From Phreatobacter sp. (GTDB taxonomy: Bacteria > Pseudomonadota > Alphaproteobacteria > Rhizobiales > Phreatobacteraceae), in contig NZ_JAUYFA010000072.1 in assembly GCF_030691135.1 (NCBI RefSeq), positions 1 to 64,000 of the forward strand: 64,000 nucleotides of DNA, given 5' to 3'. Positions 14,992 to 19,524 of this stretch are shown here, in pieces. Each line of letters opens with the position of its first letter. Position 1 is the first letter of the stretch. Below the pieces are notes generated by a model. The model was not told the DNA's origin. It worked only from the letters and a program-made list of their open reading frames with translations, and made no database searches. Made by a program: the position numbers and the translations under genes.

Positions 14992-15875
14992 CAGAGCCTC
15001 TCGATCTCGTGGGTGCCGAACAGGCCGTAGGGCCTGACCACCAGCACGACGAGCAGGATGGTGAAGGTGGCGAGAAGCTTGAACTCGCCGCCCATGAAGC
15101 GGCCGACCATGGCTTCGAGCCAGCCGATGAAGAGGCCGGCGATGAGGGCGCCGAGGATCGAGTCGAGGCCGCCGACGATGACCACGACGAAGACCGACAG
15201 GCCGAACAGGCCCATCGCCGAGGAGATGCCGCCGACCGAGCCGACGAGGATGCCGGCCAGCGCCGCGACGACGGCGGCCAGCATCCAGGAGAAGGAGAAG
15301 ACCCCGGGCACGTCGATGCCGACGGAGGAGGCCGCCGCGCGGTCGGTGGCCGTGGCGCGCAGCGCGATGCCGCCGCGCCAGAACGAGAAGACCGTGATCA
15401 GCACCGCCATCGCCGCCGCGGCGATGACGAAGGAATAGGCCGTCTTCGAGGGAATGAAGACCTCGCCGAAGAGGACCGGCTGCGAGGGCAGGAATTCCGG
15501 CAGGCGGCGCGGCTCGGCCGACCAGACGAGCTCGACGACGCCGATCAGCACCGAGGTCAGGCCGATCGTCACCATGAAGACCGAGACCGGATTGTCCTTG
15601 AGGAGCGGGCGGATCATCGTCCGCTCGATCAGCCCGCCGATGACGGCGGCCACCGCCAGCGTCAGCGGCACCGAGGCCCAGATCGGCAGCGAGAGGCCCG
15701 CCGAAAAGCCGTAGAAGACGAAGGCGCCGATCATCAGCATCTCGCCGATGGCCAGATTGATGACCTTGGTGGCCTTGTAGATGATGACGAAGGCGACCCC
15801 GGTCAGCGCCATGAGCGAACCGGTGCCGATACCGGCGAGGCTGGTCTCGACGATGTCGATGAATTCCACGGCCAT
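14991..15875 (-). CDS. Branched-chain amino acid-type ABC transporter permease, LivH-like
   Basis: MAVEFIDIVETSLAGIGTGSLMALTGVAFVIIYKATKVINLAIGEMLMIGAF; start reassigned from the overlong ORF. Confidence 0.92.
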   Translation of the reverse strand: MAVEFIDIVETSLAGIGTGSLMALTGVAFVIIYKATKVINLAIGEMLMIGAFVFYGFSAGLSLPIWASVPLTLAVAAVIGGLIERTMIRPLLKDNPVSVFMVTIGLTSVLIGVVELVWSAEPRRLPEFLPSQPVLFGEVFIPSKTAYSFVIAAAAMAVLITVFSFWRGGIALRATATDRAAASSVGIDVPGVFSFSWMLAAVVAALAGILVGSVGGISSAMGLFGLSVFVVVIVGGLDSILGALIAGLFIGWLEAMVGRFMGGEFKLLATFTILLVVLVVRPYGLFGTHEIERL

Positions 15876-16735
15876 CACGCCACCTCGCCCATTGCGGCGC
15901 CGTCGAGAGCAGCCTTGCGCGGATCGCCGGAGCCGCCGAGATAGGCCTTGATCACGTCGGGGTTGTTGCGCACCTCGGTCGGCGAGCCGGCGGCGATGCG
16001 GCGGCCGAAGTTCAGCACGCAGACATGGTCGGAAATGTCCATGACCATGCCCATGTCGTGCTCGACGAGCAGCACGGTGACGCCCCATTCGTCGCGCACG
16101 TCGAGGATGGCGCGGGCCATGTCCTCGGTCTCCTCGCGGTTCATGCCGGCGACGGGCTCGTCGAGCATGAGGATGCGCGGGCGCATGGCCAGCGCCCGGG
16201 CGAGTTCGACCTTCTTCTGCAGGCCGTAGGGCAGGATCGCCACCGGCACGTTGCGGATATGGTCGAGCTCGAGGAAGTCGATGACGTCGCGCTCGATCTC
16301 GGCGCGCAGCTCCATCTCCTCGCGCCGGGTCTTGCCCCAATAGAGGAAGGCGCCGAAGACGCCGGAGGTCAGATGGGCGTGGCGGCCGAGCTTGATGTTG
16401 TCGAGCACGGTCATGCCGCGGAACAGCGCGATGTTCTGGAAGGTGCGGGCGAGGCCGAGCTTGGCGCGGTCACGGGCCGGGACCTGGGTGATGTCGACGC
16501 CGTCGAGCTTCACTGTCCCGGTCTTCGGCCGGTAGAAGCCGGAGATGGCGTTGAAGGCCGAGGTCTTGCCGGCCCCGTTCGGGCCGATCAGGGCCGTGAT
16601 GGAACCGGGCTCGACATGCAGGTCGATGCCGTCGAGCGCCTTCACCCCGCCGAACTGCAGCGACAGGTTCTCGACGTCGAGACGGGCGGCGGGCGGCCGC
16701 ACGGGCGCGGCCGAATGTGATGGCGACACCGCCAA
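15875..16735 (-). CDS. ABC transporter ATP-binding protein, LivG-like
   Basis: LIGPNGAGKTSAFNAISGFY, LMLDEPVAGMNREE. Confidence 0.94.
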   Translation of the reverse strand: MAVSPSHSAAPVRPPAARLDVENLSLQFGGVKALDGIDLHVEPGSITALIGPNGAGKTSAFNAISGFYRPKTGTVKLDGVDITQVPARDRAKLGLARTFQNIALFRGMTVLDNIKLGRHAHLTSGVFGAFLYWGKTRREEMELRAEIERDVIDFLELDHIRNVPVAILPYGLQKKVELARALAMRPRILMLDEPVAGMNREETEDMARAILDVRDEWGVTVLLVEHDMGMVMDISDHVCVLNFGRRIAAGSPTEVRNNPDVIKAYLGGSGDPRKAALDGAAMGEVA

Positions 16736-16953
16736 TTCCTCCCCTGGAAGTGCCGCGCGGCTTCAGCCGTCTTCGACACCGATGCGTTCCTGCGCGGGCC
16801 GCGAGACCCGTTCCTTGCTGGCAACCTACTCATGGGTACGGCGAGGTCAATGTGAGTTGCGCCGAATTCGATCCGATTCAGCCCTTCGGAGGATGGCGAG
16901 ACGTCGCATCCCATCAAAAATCAGCTTGGAACGTCCAGCCACGGAACCACTGC

Positions 16954-18144
16954 TCACCTAGTGGCCAGAATCTCCGACGCAGACGTGTTGCATAACCATT
17001 TTCGTATTAGCTTGATCTGTCCACTCGCCTGCCACGCATTGTAACTTTGCCAATACGTGAACGAACCATCTCTCAACGAATCTGGCTGCTCGTGCAATAT
17101 GACAAGCGATTTACTCTTCGAAGAGTCCAACCACCCCTCAAAAAATGTGTTAATTGTGAAATCCCCCCAGCCGTACCCAGACATTATTACGTGATCTACA
17201 TCCTTCAGATTTCTAGCAAAATGATAAAATACATCATTGTAAATGCCGTAATGGTACATAATTGCCTTTTCTCTTCCAGTGAGAAAAGAAGCCTGATGAC
17301 GCAAAGGAACTACTCTTCGTCCGTTTAAGTCAATTATATTTGCTATTTTGCCCCTGTCTGCCATCCCAATTTTTGTTATCCCATCCTTCCAGAACCGGAA
17401 CCAGTTTATTGCGCCATGAAGCTTAAAGATACGCACCCTTGAAGCCTTGTACGTCCCCTCATTAGCCCAACGAACATCCCCATCGGGCGGTCCGAAGCCA
17501 TCCGCGTAATCTATCCCCTCCGACTGCAAAAATTGCTCAATCAGAACGTCGTGATTCAGCGAGAATATTGAAATATTTTTAGCTTTTTTATATTTTATTA
17601 ATTCTAATAAAGACTCAAATCCATACTGATACTGTTTATCCAATGAATCGGATATTGTTTCCTCAATGTAGTCACATATCAGATTGCATTTGTCTGATAG
17701 GTATTGCATTTTTTCGTACTTTGATCCGCCGACTAGCTCATCTTTTATTCTATTGAGGCCGCTATGCATGAAGGAGGATGTAAATATGTTATCGCAACGC
17801 CCTTCTCCCCAAAACCCAATCTCACTACAAAGCGAAAACAAGTCCTCATAGTTTGGCTCGTTACTTCTAAATGCCGGCCCAGAAAACGAAAAACCAGAGC
17901 CTCTACGGAATATTCCTTGGCGTCTCATGTTTTTTTTAAATAACTTTGATAATACTTCTAGTATCCTCACATGCTCTTGATTGTTCAATAATGGATCTAA
18001 GGTGCGAATCTTTGTCGTCGCCTCCAGTGCCGTTGGCAGCTTAGAGGGAACAGAGACGCCAGCTCCAAAGAAAAACATTAGGTGCAATTTGAGCCCTCGC
18101 CCTATCGAACGCTGGGACATATTCTGTATGATTTTTTGCTTCAT
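16954..18144 (-). CDS. SIR2-like domain protein (candidate NADase / defence effector), 396 aa
   Basis: FFFGAGVSVPSKLP (Rossmann), SIFSLNHDVLIEQFL (TNYD-like), RIFKLHGAINWF (KLHG, catalytic His candidate), VIMSGYGWGDFTIN (GxSxxD-like). Lies in a markedly AT-rich segment. Confidence 0.8.
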   Translation of the reverse strand: MKQKIIQNMSQRSIGRGLKLHLMFFFGAGVSVPSKLPTALEATTKIRTLDPLLNNQEHVRILEVLSKLFKKNMRRQGIFRRGSGFSFSGPAFRSNEPNYEDLFSLCSEIGFWGEGRCDNIFTSSFMHSGLNRIKDELVGGSKYEKMQYLSDKCNLICDYIEETISDSLDKQYQYGFESLLELIKYKKAKNISIFSLNHDVLIEQFLQSEGIDYADGFGPPDGDVRWANEGTYKASRVRIFKLHGAINWFRFWKDGITKIGMADRGKIANIIDLNGRRVVPLRHQASFLTGREKAIMYHYGIYNDVFYHFARNLKDVDHVIMSGYGWGDFTINTFFEGWLDSSKSKSLVILHEQPDSLRDGSFTYWQSYNAWQASGQIKLIRKWLCNTSASEILATR

Positions 18145-18456
18145 ATTATTCGATTAAATACGTATACGTTCACTTTTAAATACGCGGATACATTACAATC
18201 AACACTTACAGATCTGCTTCGGCCGACCGCTTCCGTCGATCATCCATTCGGGCAGGGACGCCGAATGGCTGATGTCAATCGGCCAGGAAATTGGGGAGTG
18301 CTATTCGAAGGTCGGCTGGGCCATTTGCAGTGGCTCGACCGCCATCCCATGCCGGGTCTTGCCAGCGGCCCTGCCCTCGTCCCATGATCCCGCCCCACAA
18401 CGGACCGTCAGATGTCCGGATCGTCGAGAGAAACGCACACAGGAAGGAGGCGCACC

Positions 18457-19524
18457 ATGTCGGAGCGCAGGAAAGACTTCGCCGTCACGCGGCGCATCGC
18501 GGTTGCCGGCATCGGCGCCGCCGGCTTCGGCGCCGTCATGGCGCCCTGGGTCTCGAAGGCCCAGACGCTGAAGACCGAATACAAGCTCTCCGTCGTCGGC
18601 AACCGCCCGATCGCGCTGTCGGAAGGCGCGTTCCAGTGGGCGGAGATGGTGACGCAGCGCACCAACGGCCGCATCAACGTCAAAGTCTATCCGGGCTCGC
18701 AGCTGGTCGGCGGCGACCAGACCCGCGAACTCGTCGCCATGCGCCAGGGCATCATCGACTTCACGGTGTCCTCGACCATCAACATCTCGCCGCAGGTGCG
18801 CGAGATGAACATCTTCTCGCTGCCCTTCCTGATGCCGAACCACCGGGCCTTCGACGCCATCGTCAACGGCGAGGTCGGGCAGGCCCTGTTCAAGGTGATG
18901 GAGACACGCGACGTCGTGCCGCTCGCCTGGGGCGAGAACGGCTTCCGCGAACTGTCGAATTCCAAGCGGCCGATCCAGAAGCCGGAGGATCTGCGCGGCC
19001 TGAAGATCCGCTTCGCCGCCGGTGCCATCTTCGCCGACATCTACAATGGCCTCGGCGCCAATCCGGTGCAGATGTCCTTCGCCGACCTGCAGCCGGCGCT
19101 CTCCACCGGAGCGGTCGACGGCCAGGAGAATCCGGTCAACCTGTTCCTCGGGCTGAAGATGGACGCGCTCGCCCAGAAGCACATGACGATCTGGAACTAT
19201 TGCGTCGATGCCGGCCTCTTCCATGTCGCCAAGCCGGTCTGGGACACGTTCTCGGCCGCTGACAAGGAGATCGTCCGCGAGAGCGCCCGCGATGCCGCCA
19301 AGGTGCAGATCGGCGCGACCCGCAAGGGCCTCGGCGTGGTCGACCCCAACGACAAGTCCTCGCTCGAGGAACTCGCCCGGCGCGGCGTCGCCACGGTGAC
19401 GCTGACGGCCGAGGAGAAGCGCGTCTTCGCCCGCGCCACGCGCCCCGTCTTCGACAAGTGGGCGGCGCAGGTCGGTGCCGATCTCGTCAAGAAGGCCGAG
19501 GCGGCCGCCAACGCGGCGAGCTGA
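18457..19524 (+). CDS. TRAP transporter substrate-binding protein, DctP family
   Basis: Tat-like leader RRKDFAVTRRIAVAGIGAAGFGAVMAPWVSKAQ; YPGSQLVGGDQTRELVAMRQG; AGGAGG RBS before ATG 18457. Confidence 0.93.
   Translation: MSERRKDFAVTRRIAVAGIGAAGFGAVMAPWVSKAQTLKTEYKLSVVGNRPIALSEGAFQWAEMVTQRTNGRINVKVYPGSQLVGGDQTRELVAMRQGIIDFTVSSTINISPQVREMNIFSLPFLMPNHRAFDAIVNGEVGQALFKVMETRDVVPLAWGENGFRELSNSKRPIQKPEDLRGLKIRFAAGAIFADIYNGLGANPVQMSFADLQPALSTGAVDGQENPVNLFLGLKMDALAQKHMTIWNYCVDAGLFHVAKPVWDTFSAADKEIVRESARDAAKVQIGATRKGLGVVDPNDKSSLEELARRGVATVTLTAEEKRVFARATRPVFDKWAAQVGADLVKKAEAAANAAS

Follow-up and report, generated by a model that had tools for sequence, protein, structure and literature searches.

The window, a stretch of 64,000 nucleotides from a Phreatobacter sp. 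contig, carries a single gene of the SIR2_2 family between two transporter operons (Table 1). The 396-aa open reading frame (ORF), described in an earlier note on this DNA with its strand unstated, is intact and real and lies on the minus strand; the plus-strand reading of 16954-18144 is stop-ridden. The transporter neighbours named in that note were confirmed as host genes, one for a livG-type ABC ATPase and the other for a DctP/TRAP binding protein. As the note had also stated, no HerA, Argonaute or TIR gene is a neighbour: the inserted segment consists of one gene between the ABC and DctP genes, and neither the ORF listing nor a check of the spacer revealed a second ORF in it that is likely to be a gene. 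The true start of the SIR2_2 gene is perhaps about 20 codons further in than the ORF start. In the alignment, the proteins of relatives start at the first beta strand, around 20 residues into the 396-aa ORF, and residues 1-19 were modelled by AlphaFold with low confidence.

The GC content of the gene is 0.422 (0.46 at third positions) and that of the insert 0.436, compared with 0.691 for the remaining window. The foreign, AT-rich composition proposed earlier was thus borne out, and the hand count behind it (13 G/C of 60 at 17581-17640) proved exact. Searching Pfam revealed SIR2_2 (PF13289) with 31.9 bits at a curated cut-off of 24.5. Many SIR2 models of PADLOC matched the protein as well (best E 8e-16), those named Aga_SIR2 scoring best, but these scores are at cross-family level only; NCBIfam gave no match. 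Full-length homologues were found down to E 4e-68. The Phreatobacter sp. genome contains a single copy of the gene and no further SIR2_2 protein.

Table 1. Position and strand of the features at the SIR2_2 locus, in window coordinates.
Feature	Position	Strand	Basis or remark
livG-type branched-chain amino-acid ABC transporter ATPase	15875..16735	minus	Host gene, flank
Inserted foreign segment, about 1.44 kb, GC 0.44	16909..18350		Empty site in 8 congeners
SIR2_2-family gene, 396-aa ORF	16954..18144	minus	Pfam, PADLOC, homologues, alignment, AlphaFold
GYGWGD motif, residues 323-328; D328 predicted near NAD ribose	17161..17178	minus	Alignments
KLHG motif, residues 241-244; predicted catalytic H243	17413..17424	minus	Alignments
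N197-H198-D199 of LNHD motif; N predicted catalytic Asn	17548..17556	minus	Alignments
Helical region, residues 46-186; candidate control/sensing region	17587..18009	minus	AlphaFold, conservation
NYEDL motif, residues 98-102; clade-conserved	17839..17853	minus	Alignments
GAGVS motif, residues 27-31; NAD-binding loop	18052..18066	minus	Clade alignment
DctP-type TRAP solute-binding protein	18412..19524	plus	Host gene, flank

Single-gene insertion at the livG/dctP junction

Comparison of the livG-dctP interval in relatives, proposed in the earlier note, revealed that the gene is variably present: all eight congeneric genomes with the same junction are devoid of it, and their dctP regions are up to 95% identical to the window. 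The other three congeners gave no strong match to the window dctP gene. Homology between congeners and window stops at 16908-16912 and restarts at 18337-18358, and the edges of the insert are good to about 10-15 bases. The empty site is just 80-90 bp of non-conserved spacer in six of the eight congeners and a longer non-conserved spacer in L009 and L010. Because the gene is missing from the same junction in every one of the eight, the simplest reading is a recent gain of a single-gene segment of about 1.44 kb on this lineage.

A mobile element at the insert was rejected, as it contains no transposase ORF, tRNA or Rfam RNA family and no flanking direct repeats. An integron cassette was rejected as well, since the suspected integrases upstream of three homologues (L049, L050 and L054) are Fic proteins and the approximately 45 bp after the stop codon could not accommodate an attC site. 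The spacer upstream of the gene (18145-18350) is AT-rich and grades into GC-rich sequence. It gave only chance matches in 12 genomes of the genus, with neither a second copy nor a source among them.

Conserved motifs and predicted fold

The four SIR2 motifs claimed in the earlier note were found at the residues given there, namely G27-A28-G29, N197 and D199 in SLNHD, H243 in KLHG and D328 in GYGWGD. The alignment of the clade described below has no variation at N197, H243, K241, G27 and G29, and D328 is almost invariant; the catalytic-motif residues align with those of SIR2 proteins from HerA-linked loci. Almost all clade members in which the NAD-binding loop is present have G-[SA]-G-x-S there, and E100 of the NYEDL motif is invariant also in the other SIR2 proteins sampled (alignment A1). 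By analogy, NAD+ hydrolysis is the likely reaction of the window protein, because the equivalent Asn is needed for NAD loss in GbAgaS (N155A; PMC10620215) and the equivalent Asn and His in human FAM118B (N163A, H206A; PMC12700824).

The AlphaFold model of the window protein (pLDDT 83.7, pTM 0.84) has a SIR2 fold, composed of a Rossmann core and a helical region whose four longer helices lie within residues 56-169. This agrees with the fold expected in the earlier note, which had proposed a comparison with ThsA and DSR2; in the Foldseek comparison SIR2 of SIR2-HerA was the best match (E 1.8e-11), followed by DSR2 (E 5e-5) and ThsA (E 7e-4). Whole-chain TM-scores against the solved folds were only 0.5-0.6, which indicates that the domain packing differs from theirs. 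Beyond this single SIR2 fold, neither Pfam nor AlphaFold revealed a further domain. The helical region is moderately to poorly conserved and among the least conserved parts of the protein (mean majority 0.36-0.40 versus 0.55-0.63 around the motifs), as would be expected under changing selection. The earlier proposal that the trigger domain could lie in helical residues 50-190 stands in so far as this stretch remains a candidate; it is not obviously an added sensor, since SIR2 of SIR2-HerA is similar in size and also has a helical subdomain.

The LNHD clade and its neighbours

An alignment-based scan of GTDB species genomes yielded 22 relatives besides the window protein. The majority are full-length, and they belong to Acidobacteriota, Nitrospirota, Planctomycetota, Ignavibacteriota, Verrucomicrobiota, Balneolota and other phyla. 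Their identity to the window protein is 21-36% over the family alignment, and the SIR2_2 domain was recognised by Pfam in all 23. The best relative is L049 (E 4e-68), which is also the nearest clade member in the tree. The clade, comprising these 23 and one more, received 98% SH-aLRT support in a tree built from 105 SIR2 proteins. All 23 proteins carry LNHD, whereas 73 of the 82 other SIR2 proteins have NYD at that position; in these alignments, H198 in place of the usual Y is what marks the clade. Seven more LNHD proteins (L071, L073, L075, L089, L090, L101 and L134) branch on the side of the tree where the clade lies, and L089 is placed inside it. In the Bacteroidales MAG that holds the sister L073, a 1566-aa protein devoid of a Pfam match is encoded 12 bp after the SIR2 gene (L073:1563-6263). 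The NCBIfam model NF042942 weakly matches 19 of the 23 clade members.

Samples of the order, class and phylum of the window gave only distant, mostly partial SIR2 matches, and a profile search of 384 further genomes of its class revealed no other clade member. No close relative was found on plasmids or phages by protein search, nor on plasmids by DNA. Among viral contigs, the single-protein scan gave no match and the alignment scan only partial SIR2 matches of 20-29% identity. In all of the 22 cases compared, the clade gene has a higher AT content than its flanks, with a mean difference of 9 points versus 5 in the HerA-type set.

Among loci with a readable downstream gene, the gene directly after SIR2 encodes a HerA-like ATPase at 70 of the 80 loci outside the clade, compared with none of the 20 within it; four of these ATPases were confirmed by Pfam as DUF87/HerA. 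No HerA gene directly follows the LNHD outgroup proteins either. Some SIR2-HerA loci (L032, L077, L078 and L113) share a further gene upstream of SIR2, of about 1020-1050 aa in the last three, which suggests a three-gene version of SIR2-HerA. No neighbour is common to the whole clade, apart from Fic/DOC genes on the same strand upstream of SIR2 in three loci (L049:6739-7932, L050:332-1384 and L054:1464-2519); in L049, the closest relative of the window gene, the gap is 95 bp. No Argonaute was recognised among the clade neighbours tested. By tree, motif and neighbourhood, the window gene is placed in a distinct, partner-free LNHD clade of SIR2_2. The earlier description of an orphan devoid of a partner holds for the locus, where the gene is alone, but as a member of this clade it is not an isolated orphan, and since the whole clade is partner-free the lack of a partner seems to be an ancestral state and no accident of this copy.

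Known or candidate defence genes were found in or beside 7 of 22 clade loci. The SIR2 gene lies 21 bp before BrxA in a BREX locus (L050), 18 bp after a TIR gene (L057), 12 bp after the type ISP enzyme of a type ISP RM locus (L061), 1 bp after HsdS of a type I RM locus (L063) and 12 bp before Mod of a type III RM locus with a DrmD-like helicase (L065). It overlaps the HmaB start in an Hma locus (-4 bp; L066) and is accompanied by the candidate defence gene PDC-S11 in L064. In L066:2437-11686 the gene is located between HmaA and HmaB as if it were a member of the operon. The TIR gene of L057:6609-9125 (Fodinibius salsisoli) encodes 457 aa, is ThsB/PDC-S66-like and may form an unusual TIR+SIR2 pair. 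The clade genes outside these seven loci are alone in varied contexts, many of them ordinary metabolic ones. Type I RM loci also harbour two LNHD sister genes, L075 and L101.

The clade-neighbour proteins scanned for defence were chosen by hand. The controls, 60 proteins in 20 regions taken from the phylum of the window and not from those of the clade, matched five PADLOC models with one protein each, none of them RM, BREX or Hma. The difference between 7 of 22 clade loci and 0 of 20 controls (Fisher p approximately 0.009, controls not phylum-matched) is therefore only indicative of enrichment, and a stricter leave-own-locus-out phmmer comparison (3 of 23 versus 0 of 20) is too weak to decide alone. 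Taken together, the scattered defence neighbours and the AT-rich clade genes give the appearance of a defence gene that is mobile and often moves by itself.

Possible function and relation to known SIR2 systems

We consider it somewhat probable that the gene moves horizontally and encodes an abortive-infection effector that depletes NAD+, has no partner and is controlled from within the protein itself. We infer NAD+ cleavage, activation by phage and the location of the sensor as follows. At rest, the SIR2 fold would be kept inactive, probably through its oligomeric state and the helical region 46-186, and a phage product or an infection-induced change would set it free; sensing would be self-contained in this region and in the state of the oligomer. 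Such a small AT-rich unit, with no need of a fixed partner, could move horizontally and settle either alone between housekeeping operons, like the window copy, or inside other defence operons. Counting against this explanation, known SIR2 effectors of similar size need a partner (HerA, Ago), a separate sensor domain is absent from the protein and a defence gene is absent near the window copy.

The main rival of self-contained sensing is that the protein serves restriction-type systems as a backup "guard" effector, in the manner of PrrC for type I RM, and is kept off by the RM, BREX or Hma machinery or senses its inhibition. The small gaps or overlaps with which clade genes sit within or next to RM, BREX and Hma operons would fit such a role, as would the type I RM loci of the two LNHD sisters, but in about two thirds of the clade loci the flanks, as far as they could be read, contain neither an RM nor a BREX gene, and the widely differing partner types are ill-suited to specific contact. 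In Phreatobacter sp. the protein would have to act in trans with a system of the host or await one. The host genome does have one N6-adenine methyltransferase gene of type I RM style (L172, G000:C15:13402-14259), which could be a partner in trans; it is far from the SIR2_2 locus and unlinked to it. We regard this rival as unlikely, but to be taken seriously.

That the window gene is instead one half of a two-gene system such as SIR2-HerA, decayed or stranded and functionless here after loss of its partner, appears improbable: the nearest structures are indeed SIR2-HerA subunits and the window copy is partnerless, but its frame is intact to the C-terminus of the family, every motif residue is kept, and HerA is missing across the clade, so that any loss must be old. 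A role as NAD-using enzyme outside defence (deacylase, ADP-ribosyl transfer or stress enzyme) seems quite improbable; the sirtuin superfamily contains such enzymes and many clade loci have ordinary metabolic surroundings, but SIR2_2 proteins do not have the zinc module that canonical sirtuins require for deacetylation (PMC12700824), and the patchy distribution, the defence neighbours and the AT-rich genes suit defence better. Little credence is given to a selfish addiction toxin restrained by an antitoxin or RNA that is unlinked or has escaped recognition. The SIR2_2 effector GbAgaS can kill by itself, without its Ago (PMC10620215), but no small gene is conserved next to the clade members, the spacer contains no convincing antitoxin ORF, and no Rfam family is present.

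It is possible, if rather doubtful, that the LNHD clade represents an undescribed one-gene NAD+-depleting defence, in which a sirtuin of about 390 aa senses infection with neither an added sensor domain nor a partner and moves as a plug-in effector, either by itself or as part of BREX, Hma and restriction operons. Novelty at the level of the clade is provisional: no description of it was found in the literature, but it may be mentioned in the 2025 Science survey of SIR2 antiphage relatives cited in PMC12700824. SIR2 is absent from a 2026 survey of auxiliary effectors in BREX (PMC12839542). The clade has no specific model in PADLOC 2.0, Pfam or NCBIfam, and annotation pipelines would label its proteins just "SIR2-like", if at all. 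In known SIR2 defence effectors, switching depends on a partner (HerA, Argonaute or a TIR signal) or on a long sensor within the protein (DSR2). If the interpretation is true, a widespread clade that has neither of them would reveal the minimal size of a complete NAD+-depleting immune system and offer a simple protein for finding trigger and autoinhibition.

Comparison with these systems places the window protein outside each of them. Thoeris ThsA has a SIR2 NADase domain of matching fold, but the window protein is devoid of its SLOG-type sensor domain and the insert of a ThsB (TIR) gene. DSR1 and DSR2 are likewise single-gene SIR2 NADases; DSR2, however, is a protein of about 1000 aa whose long C-terminal part is a sensor binding the phage tail tube, and only its SIR2 part aligns with the 396 aa of the window protein. 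The SIR2 proteins associated with long-B pAgo (bAgaS, BPAS) and other Argonautes are also SIR2_2 effectors, but the window protein scores far below a true family match and its one-gene insert contains no fused or adjacent Argonaute (SPARSA, BPAS). The best match in structure and sequence is SIR2 of SIR2-HerA/Nezha (PDB 8suw, 8w9l, 8wld and 8j4u), which resembles the window protein in fold, size (about 390-420 aa) and the GAG, N..D, KLHG and GY..D motifs. The window gene differs from it by LNHD in place of NYD, by its separate clade (98% SH-aLRT) and by the lack of a HerA-like gene, both in the 64-kb window and beside 20 clade genes. Within the wider SIR2_2 superfamily (PF13289) the window protein has its place by its score above the cut-off, its catalytic Asn and His and its GxG loop.
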